Positions 7,573 through 54,339 of a stretch of 64,000 bases of DNA are shown here, in pieces. The stretch's first letter is position 1. Each line of letters begins with the position of its first letter. The notes under the pieces are model-generated. The model saw nothing but the letters and a program-made list of their open reading frames with translations. It ran no database searches and was not told where the DNA came from. This DNA is from Tildeniella nuda ZEHNDER 1965/U140. GTDB lineage: Bacteria; Cyanobacteriota; Cyanobacteriia; Leptolyngbyales; Leptolyngbyaceae. The stretch covers positions 248,001 to 312,000 of the forward strand of contig JAHHIG010000001.1 of NCBI GenBank assembly GCA_019358895.1. Reading direction: 5' to 3'. The position numbers were made by a program, and so were the translations under genes.

Positions 7573-7748
7573 CTTAGGAGTTGTACAGAAATAACAGCAT
7601 GGTCTGTAGCCGTCAGCCGTCAGCGAAAAGCTGATAGCTGATAGCTGATAGCTGATAGCTGATAGCTGATAGCTGATAGCTGATAGCTGATAGCTGATAG
7701 CTGATAGCTGATCCAAAAGTGTGCAGTTATTTTTCAGCAAGCTCTTAA
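7573..7748. mobile_element. MITE-like element, copy 1, with 12-unit AGCTGAT core
   Basis: This 176-bp element shares both ends with the copy at 19591-19724. Its outer ~27 bases (from CTTAGGAGTTG at the left to AGCTCTTAAG at the right) form imperfect terminal inverted repeats, about 21 of 27 matching with one gap. The core 7629-7712 is a perfect tandem array of 12 heptamers AGCTGAT. It has no coding capacity. It fills the gap between the DUF308 gene and the end of glcF. Calling it mobile is an inference from the inverted ends and the two copies. Confidence 0.65.
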
Positions 7749-9212: not shown

Positions 9213-10604
9213 TTAAATTTTGCCTACAAAGCGGTGAGGGCTTAAACGATCGTCTGGATCAAAGTGGTGTTTTAATTGGCGCATTAGGGGCAGCGCGTTG
9301 CCAGAGTAGCCCCATACATCGATCGCCTGTTTCATTGCGATCGGAGCCTGCAAAACAGACAGAAAGCCACCCTTTGCCTGACAGAGCGATCGCACTTGCA
9401 AGAGATCTGATGGGGTGACAGCATCGAATACCAATCTGCCCAGTCCACTAGCTATATGAATTTGTCCAAACCAGGGCACGATCGCCAAGTCCTTGATCGC
9501 CAAGTCCTTAAGGGTTGTCAGCAGCGCTACGGCTTCGGAGGGGCGTATTCCTATTTTGCAAGTAATCGCGTCGGTCTGGTTGTTCACCGTCATGCGTTTT
9601 TGTAAGCGTTGCCATAGAGCGGTGTCATCAGCAGCAGCAAAACAGGAGCAAGCTAACCCCAACGCTTGACCGACTTCAATCATGCGCTTGGTTTGCTCCT
9701 GGACATTGGGCAAGCTGCTCTGAAATCGCACTGCCAGGGCAGTACCCGCGATCGCCAGTTCTCCAGCTACCGACTCGGACAAGATATCTGCACTAGCGGG
9801 TGTTAGCGCTGAACTCAGGAGCGTTTGAGTCGCTTGAGCGATCGCGCCTGTAGCACCGCTCAGCACAATGGTTTGTGACGCTTCGGGCAACGGGTAAACG
9901 CGAAAGGTTACTTGCGTGATGATGCCCAAAGTGCCGTAGGAGCCAGTGAAAAGCTTCATCAGGTCATAGCCTGCGACGTTTTTTACGACCCGTCCACCTG
10001 CTTTAGCAACCTGTCCATCGGCGCGGACAAACGACAGCCCTAGAAGCATATCTCGCACACTGTTATACCGCTGACGCAGTGAGCCTGTGTCTGCGGTTGC
10101 CACAATGCCACCGATCGTCGCCTGGTCTGGATAAGCAGGATCGATCGCCAAAAACTGTCCCGCTTTTGCCAATGTTGCCTGCAAGTCAGCGAACCGCATC
10201 CCTGCTTCGACTGTCACCGTCAAATCACCCACTGCATGGTCAATCAATTGATTTAGCCGCTCTGTACTCACCATCAGCAAAGGTGGAAGGTTTTCTTCCT
10301 CCTGCCTTCTGCCCTCTGCCCTCTGCCCTCCCACCAATCCGCCCCAGTGCAGCTTACTCCCCGCACCACAGGGTAAGAGAGGTTGGCGATCGGTGGCTGT
10401 TACCACTGCGGACAGAGCGGTTGGCGTGTTGGGATAAGTGATACTACTGGCAAGCGTTTCGGGCGTGACTGATCGCCGAATCATCGCTTTTTGGCTCAGA
10501 GGTAGTGTGTCCCAGCCATGTAGCTCGATCGCCTCAACTGGGCGCGCTGAGAATTGGAGCGTATGCTGGAGATCGGCACCATTTTTTGCAGAAGGCATTC
10601 CCAT
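9213..10604 (-). CDS. glcE: glycolate dehydrogenase FAD-binding subunit GlcE
   Basis: 463 residues of the FAD-linked oxidase (VAO/PCMH) fold. FAD-binding motifs are visible: PCGAGSKLHWGG, VEAGMRFADLQATLA, YPDQATIGGIVATADTGSLR and GGRVVKNVAGYDLMKLFTGSYGTLGIIT. The length and the short C-terminus (HHFDPDDRLSPHRFVGKI) fit GlcE rather than the longer GlcD. It lies 3 bases before glcF. Between the FAD-binding motifs sits the stretch VGGQRAEGRRQEEENLPP, encoded by a GGCAGAAG-type repeat array, which reads as an insertion. Acts at the membrane or in the cytosol with GlcF and GlcD. Confidence 0.88.
   Translation of the reverse strand: MGMPSAKNGADLQHTLQFSARPVEAIELHGWDTLPLSQKAMIRRSVTPETLASSITYPNTPTALSAVVTATDRQPLLPCGAGSKLHWGGLVGGQRAEGRRQEEENLPPLLMVSTERLNQLIDHAVGDLTVTVEAGMRFADLQATLAKAGQFLAIDPAYPDQATIGGIVATADTGSLRQRYNSVRDMLLGLSFVRADGQVAKAGGRVVKNVAGYDLMKLFTGSYGTLGIITQVTFRVYPLPEASQTIVLSGATGAIAQATQTLLSSALTPASADILSESVAGELAIAGTALAVRFQSSLPNVQEQTKRMIEVGQALGLACSCFAAADDTALWQRLQKRMTVNNQTDAITCKIGIRPSEAVALLTTLKDLAIKDLAIVPWFGQIHIASGLGRLVFDAVTPSDLLQVRSLCQAKGGFLSVLQAPIAMKQAIDVWGYSGNALPLMRQLKHHFDPDDRLSPHRFVGKI
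10297..10332. repeat. STRR array inside the glcE coding region
   Basis: About five units of CTGCCCT/CTGCCTT on the plus strand. The reading frame of glcE stays open through it. The same heptamer type occurs outside genes at 31134-31182 and 53338-53365. Confidence 0.8.
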
Positions 10605-19595: not shown

Positions 19596-19724
19596 GAGTT
19601 GTACAGAAATAACAGCATGGTCTATAGCCGTCAGCAAAAAGCTGATAGCTGATAGCTGATAGCTGATAGCTGATAGCTGATAGCTAATCCAAAAGTGTGC
19701 AGTTATTTTTTAGCAAGCGCTTAG
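19591..19724. mobile_element. MITE-like element, copy 2, with 7-unit core
   Basis: This 134-bp copy shares its left (CTTAGGAGTTGTACAGAAAT) and right (AAAAGTGTGCAGTTATTTTT) ends with the copy at 7573-7748. Its core at 19640-19688 has six AGCTGAT units and one AGCTAAT, so it differs from copy 1 mainly in repeat number. It overlaps the stop codon of the DUF2854 gene and ends about 70 bases before pdxH. Confidence 0.65.
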
Positions 19725-20556: not shown

Positions 20557-23481
20557 ATGCAAAAACCGCGATCGTCTGTCGAAATTCCCACTTGCGCCTG
20601 GAGCCGTCCGATCGGGCTGGGCTGGGAAAAGCCGTATACCGTCCGTTACACCAGCAATCTGGACGATGGTCCCTGGCACGGGATGCCATTGGGCGGTTTT
20701 GGAGCAGGCTGCATTGGGCGATCGCACCGGGGCGACTTCAACCTGTGGCACATCGACGGCGGCGAACACCTCTTCAAACGCCTGCCTGCCTGCCAGTTCA
20801 GCGTGTTTGAGCAAGGCAGCGAAAAAACGCAAGCATACGCCCTTTGTACAGAACCACCGGCGGATAGAACGTTAGGAGCCTGGCAGTGGTATCCGGCGAG
20901 TCGGGAGGTAGAAGGGGAGGAGGGGGGAACCGCAGAGACGCAGAGGCGCGGAGAAAGGGAAAATCAAAACTTCTCCCCTACACCCCACACCCCACACCCC
21001 ACACCCTCTACAGGCACCTACCATGCGCTTTATCCCCGCAGTTGGTTTGTCTACGAAAACGTCTTTCAGGCAGAGCTGACCTGTGAACAGTTTTCGCCGA
21101 TCTGGGCGCACAACTACCAGGAAAGCAGCTATCCGGTTGCGGTGTTTCGCTGGACGGCGCATAATCCCACTGACAAGCCGATCACTTTGAGCATCATGCT
21201 GACCTGGCAGAATATGGTGGGTTGGTTTACCAATGCCCTGAAGTCGCCAGAGGTGCAGTTGCGCGATGATGGCAGCCCGTTTTACGACTATCAGCCACGA
21301 TTGGGGGAAAGCGTTGGGAACTTCAATCGGCTGATGGGGGACGAGCAGCGGTTGGGGGTGGTGATGGGGAGAGAGGCAGAAGGCAGAGGGCAGAGGGCAG
21401 AAGGGCAGGGAGCAGGGGAGGCAGAGGGAGCAGGGGAAGCAACCGCAGAGACGCAGAGATACGGAGGGGTGAGTGATTCTGAGTCCGATTCTTCTAGTCA
21501 GAACTCAAAACTCACCCCACACCCTACACCCCACACCCCACACCCCGCCGAAGGCTCTGGACAATGGTCGATCGCCACGTACCTCGATCCCAACCTGCAA
21601 GAAGTCTTCTACCATACGCGCTGGAATCCTGCTGGCGATGGCGCAGATGTGTGGGATACCTTTGAGCAAGATGGGTCGCTGGTGGATTTGGATGATGAGA
21701 TGCCAGCAACAGAGGGAGAACAGATTGGGGCAGCGATCGCCGTCCGCTTTACTTTGCAACCGGGGCAAACACGCCAGATTCCCGTTGTGTTGACGTGGGA
21801 TTGCCCGGTGACGGAGTTTGCACAGGGCATCGAATACTTTCGGCGCTATACAGACTTTTTTGGGCGGAATGGACAGAATGCGTGGGCGATCGCGCGCAAT
21901 GCCCTGAAACATCACCAAACCTGGCGAGAGAAGATTCAAGAGTGGCAGCAACCCATCTTAGAACGAGAGGACTTACCCGACTGGTTCAAACTGGCGCTGT
22001 TCAATGAGCTGTATAACCTGACGGATGGTGGGACGCTGTGGAGCGCTGCCGATGAACGCGATCCGGTCGGGCAATTTGCCGTACTGGAATGTCTTGACTA
22101 CCGCTGGTACGAGAGTTTGGATGTGCGGCTCTACGGATCTTTTGCGCTGTTGATGCTGTTTCCCAAACTCGAAAAAGCGGTCATTCGTGCGTTTGCGAGA
22201 GCCATTCCTGCCAGCGACGATCGCACACGCATCATCGGCTACTACACCACGATCGGCTCCGAAAGTCCCGCAGCCATTCGTAAAATCGCAGGCGCAACAC
22301 CCCACGACCTCGGCGCACCGAACGAACACGTCTGGGAGCAAACCAACTACACCAGTTATCAAGACTGCAACCTCTGGAAAGACCTGCCCAGCGATTTTGT
22401 CCTGCAAGTCTATCGGAATTACCTCCTCACAGGTGCAACCGATGTGGAATTTCTTACCGAGTGCTGGGAGGCGATCGTTCAAACTCTCACCTACCTCAAA
22501 ACCTTTGACCTTGATGGCGACGGCATTCCTGAGAACTCCGGTGCGCCTGACCAGACCTTTGATGATTGGAAGTTGCAAGGGGTGAGTGCTTACTGTGGTG
22601 GGCTGTGGATTGCGGCGTTGGAGGCGGCGATCGCGATCGGGAAGATTCTGGAGGCAGAAAGCAGAAGGCAGAAGGCAGAAAGGGAGCAAGGGGAGCAAGG
22701 GGGGCAGGGGGAGGTTAATCTTTCATCCTTTATCCTTTATCCTTTATCCTTTATCCTTCAATGTCAGTCCTGGCTCGACCAATCGCGTCCTATCTATCAA
22801 GCAAAGCTCTGGAACGGTCATTACTATCGCATTGACAGCAACAGTGGCTCGGATGTAGTGATGGCAGACCAACTCTGCGGTCAGTTCTATGCCCGACTGT
22901 TGGGATTGCCCGATGTGGTGCCCGATGAGTGTGCAAGGACGGCACTAGAGACGGTCTACGAAGCTTGTTTTGTCAAGTTCAATCAATACCTGGCATCGGG
23001 TGCGCTCAGTGCTCAAACGTTTACTTCGGTGCAGGAGGCGAGGGCGGCTGAGGAGGGGAGCAGGGGGGCAGACGGAGCAGGGGAGGCGGAGGGAGCAACC
23101 GCAGAGGCGCAGAGACGCGGAGACGAAAGTTCTGAATCCAGTTCCTCCCCACACCCCACACCCCACACCCCACACCCCACACCCCACCCGATCGGCGCTG
23201 CCAATGGTGTTCGTCCCAACGGTGCCCCTGAAAATCCAAACGCGACCCATCCGCTAGAAGTTTGGACAGGCATCAACTTTGGGCTAGCGGCGTTTCTCGC
23301 GCAGATGGGCATGACGGCTGAAGCAATGCAGCTTACCGAAGCAGTAGTGAAGCAGATTTACGAGAATGGGCTACAGTTCCGTACACCAGAGGCGATTACG
23401 GCTAGCGGTACGTTTCGTGCCTGTCATTACTTGCGGGCAACAGCAATCTGGGCAATCTACAGAGAGTTGATTGCCGAGTAA
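20557..23481 (+). CDS. GH116 (GBA2-type) glucosylceramidase-like glycosidase with repeat insertions
   Basis: 974 residues, about 150-200 longer than usual bacterial GH116. The N-terminal beta-sandwich (GMPLGGFGAGCIGRSHRGDF, LSIMLTWQNMVGW) precedes an (alpha/alpha)6 barrel. By family alignment Glu511 in FAVLECLDYRWYES is the nucleophile and Asp669 in DQTFDDW the acid/base, just before GVSAYCGGLW. Four in-frame low-complexity stretches interrupt it (about residues 118-152, 273-331, 699-736 and 828-878), all made of the STRR sequences found outside genes. No signal peptide. The substrate (glucosyl lipid or beta-glucoside) is unknown. Whether the protein still folds is open, but the catalytic sites are not hit. 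Confidence 0.85.
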   Translation: MQKPRSSVEIPTCAWSRPIGLGWEKPYTVRYTSNLDDGPWHGMPLGGFGAGCIGRSHRGDFNLWHIDGGEHLFKRLPACQFSVFEQGSEKTQAYALCTEPPADRTLGAWQWYPASREVEGEEGGTAETQRRGERENQNFSPTPHTPHPTPSTGTYHALYPRSWFVYENVFQAELTCEQFSPIWAHNYQESSYPVAVFRWTAHNPTDKPITLSIMLTWQNMVGWFTNALKSPEVQLRDDGSPFYDYQPRLGESVGNFNRLMGDEQRLGVVMGREAEGRGQRAEGQGAGEAEGAGEATAETQRYGGVSDSESDSSSQNSKLTPHPTPHTPHPAEGSGQWSIATYLDPNLQEVFYHTRWNPAGDGADVWDTFEQDGSLVDLDDEMPATEGEQIGAAIAVRFTLQPGQTRQIPVVLTWDCPVTEFAQGIEYFRRYTDFFGRNGQNAWAIARNALKHHQTWREKIQEWQQPILEREDLPDWFKLALFNELYNLTDGGTLWSAADERDPVGQFAVLECLDYRWYESLDVRLYGSFALLMLFPKLEKAVIRAFARAIPASDDRTRIIGYYTTIGSESPAAIRKIAGATPHDLGAPNEHVWEQTNYTSYQDCNLWKDLPSDFVLQVYRNYLLTGATDVEFLTECWEAIVQTLTYLKTFDLDGDGIPENSGAPDQTFDDWKLQGVSAYCGGLWIAALEAAIAIGKILEAESRRQKAEREQGEQGGQGEVNLSSFILYPLSFILQCQSWLDQSRPIYQAKLWNGHYYRIDSNSGSDVVMADQLCGQFYARLLGLPDVVPDECARTALETVYEACFVKFNQYLASGALSAQTFTSVQEARAAEEGSRGADGAGEAEGATAEAQRRGDESSESSSSPHPTPHTPHPTPHPIGAANGVRPNGAPENPNATHPLEVWTGINFGLAAFLAQMGMTAEAMQLTEAVVKQIYENGLQFRTPEAITASGTFRACHYLRATAIWAIYRELIAE
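20908..21012. repeat. repeat insertion 1 in the GH116 gene
   Basis: About 105 bases: a purine-rich GGGGAGGAGGGGGG part, then the module CCGCAGAGACGCAGAGGCGC, a short unique part, then about four ACACCCC heptamers. It encodes the stretch between WYPASRE and TGTYHALYPRSW, two pieces that are contiguous in homologues as I know them. The frame remains open. Confidence 0.8.
21373..21551. repeat. repeat insertion 2 in the GH116 gene
   Basis: About 180 bases: GGCAGAGGGCAGAAGG-type heptamers, a purine-rich part, ACCGCAGAGACGCAGAGATA, a TTCTAGTCAGAACTCAAAAC part and about five CACCCCA heptamers. Same order of parts as insertions 1 and 4, plus the extra GCAGAGG array at the left. Confidence 0.8.
22651..22765. 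repeat. repeat insertion 3 in the GH116 gene
   Basis: About 115 bases with a GCAGAAG heptamer array at the left, a GGGGAGCAAGG purine-rich middle and about five TTTATCC heptamers at the right. Composition differs from the other three insertions and resembles the tract before murQ at 53338-53408. Confidence 0.8.
23038..23190. repeat. repeat insertion 4 in the GH116 gene
   Basis: About 153 bases with GAGGGGAGCAGGGGGGC purine-rich sequence, CAACCGCAGAGGCGCAGAGA, AGTTCTGAATCCAGTTCC and about six CACACCC heptamers, the same order as insertions 1 and 2. Confidence 0.8.
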
Positions 23482-52919: not shown

Positions 52920-53339
52920 ATGCAGGTGTTTGTTTTACTGTTTAATGCTGACACGGAAAATGAAGGCATCCACACGATTCGGATTGGCGATCGCAATCTG
53001 GTGCTGATCTTTGAGCAGGAAGACGATGCGACCCGCTACGCACTATTGCTAGAGGCGCAAGATTTTCCGGTGCCAACGGTTGAAGTAATGGAGCAGGCTG
53101 ACATTGAGGGGTTCTGTGCAAGTGCTGGCTATGAGGGTCAGTTTGTGCCTGCTGGTTTTGTGCCTCAAACCGATGCCGATCGGCTGCTCTTGGCTCCCCC
53201 TGAAACTAATTTGGTTGAAACCGACTGGCAGGAAGACCAGAAGACAGAAATATCAGAATTAGAGCCAGAATCCAAAGGGGACGCGATCGCCGATGCAGAG
53301 TTGGAGCGCCTTCGCCGCCAACTGGAGGGGCTGCTGTAG
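52920..53339 (+). CDS. DUF3110 protein
   Basis: 139 residues. The DUF3110 domain (about 1-85) is visible: MQVFVLLFNADTENEGIHTI, LVLIFEQEDDATRYALLLEA and VPTVEVMEQADIEGFC. The C-terminal part is acidic (LVETDWQEDQ, EISELEPESKGD) and low in order. Family restricted to cyanobacteria and plastids; function unknown. The stop is directly followed by an STRR tract. Confidence 0.85.
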   Translation: MQVFVLLFNADTENEGIHTIRIGDRNLVLIFEQEDDATRYALLLEAQDFPVPTVEVMEQADIEGFCASAGYEGQFVPAGFVPQTDADRLLLAPPETNLVETDWQEDQKTEISELEPESKGDAIADAELERLRRQLEGLL

Positions 53340-53408
53340 AAGGCAGAGGGCAGAGGGCAGAAGGCTAGACTCGAATGCCCTTTTATCCTTTATCCTTTAT
53401 CCTTTAGA
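53338..53408. repeat. STRR tract between the DUF3110 gene and murQ
   Basis: GCAGAGG/GCAGAAG heptamers (about four) followed by TTTATCC heptamers (about four), ending about 16 bases before the murQ ATG. Its left-to-right order is that of GH116 insertion 3. Confidence 0.8.
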
Positions 53409-53424
53409 CCTTCTTTTTCTCCCC

Positions 53425-54339
53425 ATGCCCAATCTAGACGAACGTGGACATCTACTGACGGAGCAGGCAAATCCAAAGAGCGAACATCTGGATCAGTTGA
53501 CGACGCTGGAACTGGTGGATCTGTTTAACCAGGAAGATGCTCGAACGATCGTGGCGATCGCGGAGGCACGAGAGCAACTGGCAACAGCGATCGACCTCAC
53601 CGCAACCTCACTACGGCAAGGTGGACGGCTATTCTACATCGGAGCCGGGACAAGTGGACGACTGGGCGTGTTGGATGCGGCGGAATGTCCGCCTACATTT
53701 TGCTCTGATCCAGAACAAGTACAGGGCATCATTGCCGGGGGAGCCGAAGCATTAGTCCGCAGTTCGGAAGGGTTGGAGGATCGAGTAGATGATGGGGCAG
53801 CGGCGATCGCCGATCGACACATCACCGCTATCGATGTCGTTGTTGGCATCACCGCGGGTGGCACGACCCCCTACGTTCACGGGGCGTTACAGGCAGCGCG
53901 TCAGCGAGGAGCCACCACCATCTTGATCGCCTGCGTTCCTGCCGATCAGGTGAGCGCTCAGGTCGATGTGGACATTCGCTTACTGGTGGGTGCTGAAGTG
54001 CTGGCGGGTTCAACGCGTCTCAAAGCTGGCACCGTAACAAAACTGGCACTCAATATTCTCTCTACAGGTGTGATGGTGCAGTTGGGCAAGGTCTACGGCA
54101 ATCGCATGGTAGATGTGGCGGTTACGAACAAAAAGCTGCACGATCGCGCCCTCCGCATTCTGCAAGACCTGACTGACTTGAACCGTGAGGCTGCTGATTA
54201 TCTCTTGGAACAGAGCGATCGCAGTGTCAAACTCGCGCTCTTGATGCATTGGACGGGATTAGGGAAAGAAGAGGGCGATCGGCTTTTGGCGGATTATCAA
54301 GGCAACCTGAGAAAGGCGGCTATGGCATCGCATGAGTAG
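53425..54339 (+). CDS. murQ: N-acetylmuramic acid 6-phosphate etherase
   Basis: 304 residues from the ATG at 53425 (MPNLDERGHLLTEQANPKSE); the open frame to 53293 reads through the repeat tract and overlaps the DUF3110 gene, so is not used. It cleaves the lactyl ether of MurNAc-6-P in cell-wall recycling. SIS fold with FYIGAGTSGRLGVLDAAECP and VVGITAGGTTPYVHGAL. Blocks GSTRLKAGTVTKLALNILST and GNRMVDVAVTNKKL are family-typical. Cytosolic. Confidence 0.95.
   Translation: MPNLDERGHLLTEQANPKSEHLDQLTTLELVDLFNQEDARTIVAIAEAREQLATAIDLTATSLRQGGRLFYIGAGTSGRLGVLDAAECPPTFCSDPEQVQGIIAGGAEALVRSSEGLEDRVDDGAAAIADRHITAIDVVVGITAGGTTPYVHGALQAARQRGATTILIACVPADQVSAQVDVDIRLLVGAEVLAGSTRLKAGTVTKLALNILSTGVMVQLGKVYGNRMVDVAVTNKKLHDRALRILQDLTDLNREAADYLLEQSDRSVKLALLMHWTGLGKEEGDRLLADYQGNLRKAAMASHE

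Follow-up and report, generated by a model that had tools for sequence, protein, structure and literature searches.

Four loops of a cyanobacterial GH116 glycosidase as probable recurrent targets of dispersed heptamer repeats

How does a gene come to contain four stretches of the heptamer repeats of its own genome and keep its reading frame? This question is raised by a GH116 glycosidase gene of the cyanobacterium Tildeniella nuda ZEHNDER 1965/U140, located in the 64,000-nucleotide stretch of DNA analyzed here (contig JAHHIG010000001.1, positions 248,001 to 312,000; referred to as the window). A reading of the letters alone (referred to as the sequence-only reading) had proposed that this gene was invaded four times by simple repeats, and that their growth was tolerated or filtered by selection. 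We consider it likely (probability of approximately 0.72) that the four GH116 loops are permissive sites, which have been repeatedly colonized and rewritten by the dispersed heptamer and octamer repeats of the host, and then kept under selection. The features concerned are as follows (window coordinates; aa, amino acid residues; pLDDT, predicted local distance difference test of the AlphaFold model).

20557..23481, + strand: GH116 glycosidase gene (Glyco_hydr_116N and DUF608), 974 aa; Pfam and PDB 9vmj match
20902..21012, + strand: insert 1 (aa 116-152), purine-rich arm, ACGCAGAG core, CCCCACA array; pLDDT <50 at aa 118-148
21370..21552, + strand: insert 2 (aa 272-332), GGCAGAA-type arm, ACGCAGAG core, AACTCAA, CACCCCA array; pLDDT <50 at aa 276-326
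22087..22089, + strand: Glu511 codon, aligned to the TxGH116 nucleophile Glu441; invariant in 40 sequences
22561..22563, + strand: Asp669 codon, aligned to the TxGH116 acid/base Asp593; invariant in 40 sequences
22651..22761, + strand: insert 3 (aa 699-735), GGCAGAA arm, then TTTATCC array (hydrophobic peptide ILYPLSF); pLDDT <50 only at aa 723-725
23035..23190, + strand: insert 4 (aa 827-878), GGGAGCA-like arm, ACGCAGAG core, CCCCACA x5.9; pLDDT <50 at aa 842-876

The open reading frame (ORF) at 20557-23481 (+) consisted of 974 codons without an internal stop, and Tandem Repeats Finder (TRF) detected heptamer arrays in all four stretches (for example, CCCCACA at 23147-23187, 5.9 copies, 100%; CTTTATC at 22720-22758), in agreement with the sequence-only reading. 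Measured between conserved anchor motifs, the stretches were 111, 183, 111, and 156 nt (approximate coordinates), close to the 105, 180, 115, and 153 given earlier, and a part of each is the native loop of a few residues (median loop in 108 homologues: 9, 10, 18, and 2 aa). The core GCAGAG[A/G]CGCAGAG was common to three of the four inserts. Both the N-terminal and catalytic domains of GH116 were found by Pfam (PF12215, E-value of 2.4e-110; PF04685, 1.2e-124), and 9vmj and TxGH116 were matched by sequence and fold, the closest solved relative by sequence being Tlr0193/TeGH116 (PDB 9vmj, 809 aa). The phmmer alignment with Tlr0193 was split into five blocks, and the unaligned residues (116-151, 265-323, 701-736, and 810-878) corresponded to the four repeat stretches plus short margins; the earlier placement of the insertions between family blocks was thus borne out by a structural homologue. 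Glu511 and Asp669 aligned to chain positions 425 and 577 of TxGH116, each 16 lower than the numbering of E441 and D593, whose roles as the nucleophile and acid/base were taken from PDB titles; both residues, already named as catalytic from the sequence alone, were outside the four stretches. AlphaFold confidence was low over most of inserts 1, 2, and 4, as expected of flexible loops, and the loops are probably surface-exposed, the model itself being too poor to show how exposed they are or how far they lie from the active site. Since the inserts preserve the frame, neither translational bypass nor splicing is needed, and both were rejected.

Repeats recurred at the same four sites. From 110 homologous frames, we removed two under 700 aa (leaving 108) and nine identical twins, and the 99 distinct cyanobacterial homologues were scanned for periods 5, 7, 8, 10, and 11, with one stretch possibly counted at both 7 and 8. 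The scan yielded 73 arrays, each with a period of 7 or 8; 71 of them were at the four sites, the remaining two preceded a probable start methionine, and none was present elsewhere inside the proteins. The loops contained 38 distinct units, including ACCAATT at site 3 of Kamptonema, GGAAGAA in a Richelia metagenome-assembled genome, ACTCCCC in Scytonematopsis, GGGGAGCA octamers in Nostoc, and CTCCCTCA in Brasilonema, and this diversity of units argues that colonization recurred. The parsimony minimum of presence changes on a quick tree was 13, 6, 5, and 5 for sites 1-4, respectively. The sequence-only reading had regarded the same stretches at the same sites in distant genera as a sign of old loops: the sites were indeed shared, but the stretches themselves differed. 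In Microseira wollei (L108), a long AATCTCC-type heptamer array was located directly before the probable GH116 start.

The unit in the loop also matched the repeat "dialect" of the genome for two of the three patterns tried. CCCCACA had 146 matches in the T. nuda genome versus 0, 0, 8, and 0 in four others, and ACCAATT had 803 in Kamptonema (the loop carrier), 130 in Nostoc linckia, and none in three others. One genome (L050) had no match to any of the three patterns, and its GH116 loops were minimal. Array density in the flanks was 0.31/kb at 18 insert-bearing loci versus 0.16/kb at 62 loci (p = 0.014; p = 0.06 in a yes/no version).

Within the genus, the inserts were older than this strain. 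GH116 was present in 50 of 58 genomes, that of T. nuda included, among matches under the set E-value, from which short blocks are missing. Genus members contained repeat stretches at the same four sites, with varying unit and length; therefore, an assembly error, which would have undermined the sequence-only reading, cannot explain the set and was rejected. By array score, sites 1, 2, 3, and 4 were filled in 4, 3, 5, and 5 of the five other full-length genus members, respectively. Site 2 contained GGCAGAA and CCCCACA in T. nuda, mainly CCCCACA in another member, and GGATAAA-like units in Leptolyngbya FACHB-321 (a stretch too short to score as an array), and Stenomitos frigidus had only 27 nt at site 1 and 9 nt at site 2. 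In a comparison of seven species (six of the genus and one of a neighboring genus), the sharing of 9-mers between species was 0.146 for the same site (67 pairs) and 0.058 for different sites (199 pairs; p = 2e-10), suggesting mostly vertical inheritance of the inserts in the genus, followed by alteration. The claim that this one gene was invaded four times was therefore not supported: shared ancestry accounts for most of the inserts in the genus, and in distant genera these sites are occupied by other units. The GH116 frame of one genome (G013, L026) was split outside the repeats, which may be a sequencing error or decay.

Such repeats were counted in 1,924 kb of the 6.08-Mb host genome (the window and stretches of contigs C9, C11, C24, C27, and C28), using dicodon-scored ORFs as gene calls rather than an annotation and excluding 14 targeted regions (about 103 kb) from all counts. 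We found 394 arrays of period 7, 33 of period 9, 277 and 50 of periods 14 and 15, respectively, and 1-14 each of periods 4, 5, 6, 8, 10, 11, 12, and 13; mononucleotide shuffles (one per stretch, two stretches, 464 kb) gave 0 arrays at every period from 4 to 15, and the heptamer excess exceeds chance. The period-7 arrays were intergenic in 293 cases, at gene edges in 39, and internal, with coding sequence on both sides, in 62, the latter spread over 31 of 1531 called genes. Units of the GH116 inserts also occurred between genes (464 kb checked), as previously noted for the window. Dispersed 7-nt tandem units that are mostly located between genes correspond to the cyanobacterial heptamers of the short tandemly repeated repetitive (STRR) type; Elhai et al. 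in 2008 and older work reportedly dealt with STRR as small dispersed repeats spreading in cyanobacterial genomes. Perfect AGCTGAT arrays were present at 7629-7712 (12 copies) and 19640-19685 (6.6 copies) of the window; over 1,264 kb, 18 arrays of this type were counted between genes and none in a called gene, though one strand of the unit is open.

GH116, with six internal arrays, ranked second among the host genes, after a 1526-aa WD40 protein with seven. Among 15 other hosts in the first 1,264 kb, 13 had Pfam families, including GH57/DUF3536, an AcrB-type transporter, ArsP permease, AMP-binding, M48 peptidase, a histidyl-tRNA-synthetase-like protein, and FAD proteins. Internal arrays are genome-wide, and GH116 is probably one case of a wider process. 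In-frame insertion into unrelated genes was compared with outgroups with shorter loops for two genes, GH116 and the GH57-type gene below.

L155:1880-4660, - strand: GH57/DUF3536 gene; genus and outgroup loci L282-L313

The pattern of the GH57/DUF3536 loop was found in 20 of 32 loci (absent from 12), which included two overlapping pairs and represented seven members of the genus and 11 genomes from outside it. This second enzyme resembled GH116 in its behavior: the loop was 17 aa in five of the seven genus members and contained repeats of the CCCCACA, GAGAGGG, or ACTCCCC type; in the other genera, it was 8-24 aa and in some cases repeat-filled as well. Comparable unit differences were observed in the ArsP and histidyl-tRNA-synthetase-like genes, compared within the genus. 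Of the four other genes compared with relatives, one, GyrA, proved not to be a case of insertion; its array is in a linker of nearly equal length in six genus relatives, and GyrA was rejected as an example of insertion into an essential gene.

The GH116 body (outside the loops) is under strong purifying selection, with a ratio of nonsynonymous to synonymous substitution rates (dN/dS) of 0.039-0.070 in every one of the 15 pairwise comparisons among six genus members. This low ratio would be indirect evidence that the enzyme works, and the protein is probably active. In a heptamer array, every reading frame arithmetically gives the same cycle of seven amino acids because 7 is coprime to 3; a unit that lacks stops on a strand can therefore be read through in any frame, the sole requirement being a total length that is a multiple of 3. 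The sense-strand consensus was stop-free in 61 of the 62 internal arrays of the T. nuda genome, with none open on the antisense strand only, and in 69 of 71 GH116 arrays, the consensus of the two exceptions containing a stop whichever strand was read; this result is partly circular because an array with stops could not occupy an open frame. In a less circular comparison, the direction used was the more hydrophilic one for 21 of 24 distinct GH116-loop units open on both strands (p = 2.8e-4) and for all 19 of those with a contrast >1. The hydrophilic direction was similarly used in 31 of 35 internal arrays of the T. nuda genome open on both strands, and in 23 of 23 with a contrast >1. Internal arrays followed the hydrophilic direction more often than intergenic arrays (38 of 54 at high contrast) in a Fisher test without GH116 (p = 0.0075 for high contrast; 26/30 vs. 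44/68 for any contrast, p = 0.03). These results suggested that the inserts look filtered by selection toward an open frame and a mostly hydrophilic peptide. The part of the sequence-only reading that concerned filtering was thereby retained (open frame, mostly hydrophilic peptides, and dN/dS of 0.04-0.07); repeat growth by slippage is a possible mechanism.

Several results weigh against recurrent colonization under such a filter. Intergenic high-contrast arrays were also oriented, 38 of 54 being on the strand of the nearest gene, and part of the strand bias therefore has a cause other than translation. At site 3, TTTATCC arrays were tolerated even though they encode the hydrophobic ILYPLSF (mean hydropathy of +1.6); hydrophobic peptides persisted in both TTTATCC and TTCATCC arrays at this site, the opposite strand of which has stops, and the filter is not absolute. 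The dialect test failed for GGGGAGCA, which had five matches in the loop-carrying Nostoc linckia and 27 in Kamptonema (6 in T. nuda, 19 in Brasilonema, and 0 in L050), and the 130 ACCAATT matches in the genome of Nostoc linckia were accompanied by none in its GH116 loops. The sharing of 9-mers between different sites of one species (0.079, 34 pairs) differed little from the 0.058 between species (p = 0.08). Furthermore, the AlphaFold model (40 rows) was weak overall, with a mean pLDDT of 63.7 and low scores in many conserved segments.

The same-site sharing of 9-mers and the filling of sites 3 and 4 in each of the six genus members with a full-length sequence would also be expected if each site had received one insert before the radiation of the family, followed by only mutation and slippage drift. 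This explanation is unlikely, however, since distant genera hold unrelated units at one and the same site and are separated on the tree by homologues with short loops, units were swapped at site 2 inside the genus, and sites 1 and 2 of Stenomitos frigidus are nearly empty. A contingency locus, in which copy changes of one heptamer unit shift the frame and turn GH116 off and on, might be suspected from the six arrays with a unit not divisible by 3; it is very improbable because the arrays are mostly short and impure, the single split GH116 frame among the matches listed (that of G013) breaks outside the repeats, and dN/dS is low. The strand choice may alternatively reflect avoidance of G-rich (quadruplex-prone) mRNA instead of peptide quality, since internal CCCCACA arrays read C-rich on the coding strand. 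We regard this as rather unlikely: purine units (GGCAGAA and others) read G-rich, the hydrophilic direction there, in 10 of 10 high-contrast internal cases, a counterpoint weakened by intergenic purine arrays, which lean the same way (31 vs. 10).

A discrete mobile cassette, palindrome-like with a purine-rich arm, core, and pyrimidine-rich arm, and inserted by a transposase or similar in the manner of Rickettsia palindromic elements (RPE), was also considered. In the first 1,264 kb, neighboring arrays followed the purine-then-pyrimidine order at 21:3 between genes and 5:0 in genes (two of these five pairs belong to GH116), the 21 intergenic pairs folded better than shuffles on average (mean z of -2.3), and the core is shared by three of the four GH116 inserts. 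On the other hand, the five in-gene pairs folded no better than shuffles (mean z of -0.1), nor did the four GH116 inserts (z of 0.11, 0.79, -0.55, and 0.65), and a hairpin element inside GH116 was rejected for lack of a folding signal. Arm units were no more complementary than re-paired arms (permutation, 0.255), the 38 units exclude a fixed sequence, and no target duplications were seen, although they were not systematically searched for. A cassette of this kind as the source of the inserts is thus doubtful; a hairpin-like cassette may nevertheless seed the genome, with the loops holding altered derivatives.

Under recurrent colonization of permissive loops, dispersed repeats would reach the loops through slippage that starts at short seeds and through ectopic recombination involving dispersed copies. 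Colonized loops would then be retained if their frame stays open and the encoded peptide is tolerable and mostly hydrophilic. These two routes of arrival seem to be the likeliest; no arrival event was observed. A tentative extension, which we rate as possible rather than probable, is that, in cyanobacterial genomes, ectopic gene conversion copies dispersed repeats into existing low-complexity loops, swapping the unit and keeping length and frame. Conserved enzymes might then carry the repeat dialect of the lineage in the same loops, an equally tentative corollary. The clearest hint of such rewriting is the GH57-type loop, which keeps a length of 17 aa in five of the seven members of the genus but is built from three repeat types.

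Some further observations concern other genes. The 1526-aa WD40 protein (G000:C11:346547-351124, - strand; locus L199:6547-11124) has several of its seven heptamer arrays between blade matches, as judged by eye. In the window, a second gene (9213-10604, - strand) contained a heptamer array at 10298-10330 inside the FAD-binding domain match, and the ORF at 53293-54339 contained a purine array and a TTTATCC array at 53338-53406 in its N-terminal part. Frame breaks in the GH57-type gene of G014 (L309/L312) and G010 (L310/L311) were outside the repeats and may be sequencing errors or decay.

The GH116 loops would resemble RPE in action and extend the known heptamer repeats of cyanobacteria. RPE are short repeated DNA of about 150 bp, in frame in unrelated and probably still functional protein genes, but form defined families, each with a conserved peptide, whereas the units of the GH116 loops vary between lineages and represent no fixed element. 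The GH116 inserts lacked two defining features of RPE, a palindrome or hairpin (z of -0.55 to 0.79) and a conserved element sequence (38 units with species-specific content), and the same loops were filled repeatedly. For heptamer simple repeats of cyanobacteria, such as GGGGA(T/C)T in Nostoc PCC 7120, excerpts of Rehm et al. 2015 (PMC4692102) give an intergenic location for 68% of 89 and a higher occurrence inside genes than in xanthomonads. These dispersed 7-nt tandem repeats are similar to ours, but recurrence in the same loop and a comparison of encoded peptides are not described in those excerpts. Repetitive extragenic palindromic (REP) elements in coding regions (GTAG/CGTC families, PMC3733652) are also mentioned inside genes of known proteins, but are tagged palindromes of 20-40 bp rather than tandem heptamers. 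A search by title and abstract, largely without coverage of subscription papers, found no description of in-frame heptamer loops in GH116 or of recurrence in the same loop, which leaves their absence from the literature unproven.

Much of the length variation of GH116 in cyanobacteria can be repeat DNA and not new domains, which is a warning for annotation. The loops of this one enzyme, with dozens of repeat peptides, represent a natural replicated experiment on repeat DNA becoming protein, so that a single family allows tests of how loops tolerate repeats, of the orientation filter, and of how low-complexity loops originate.

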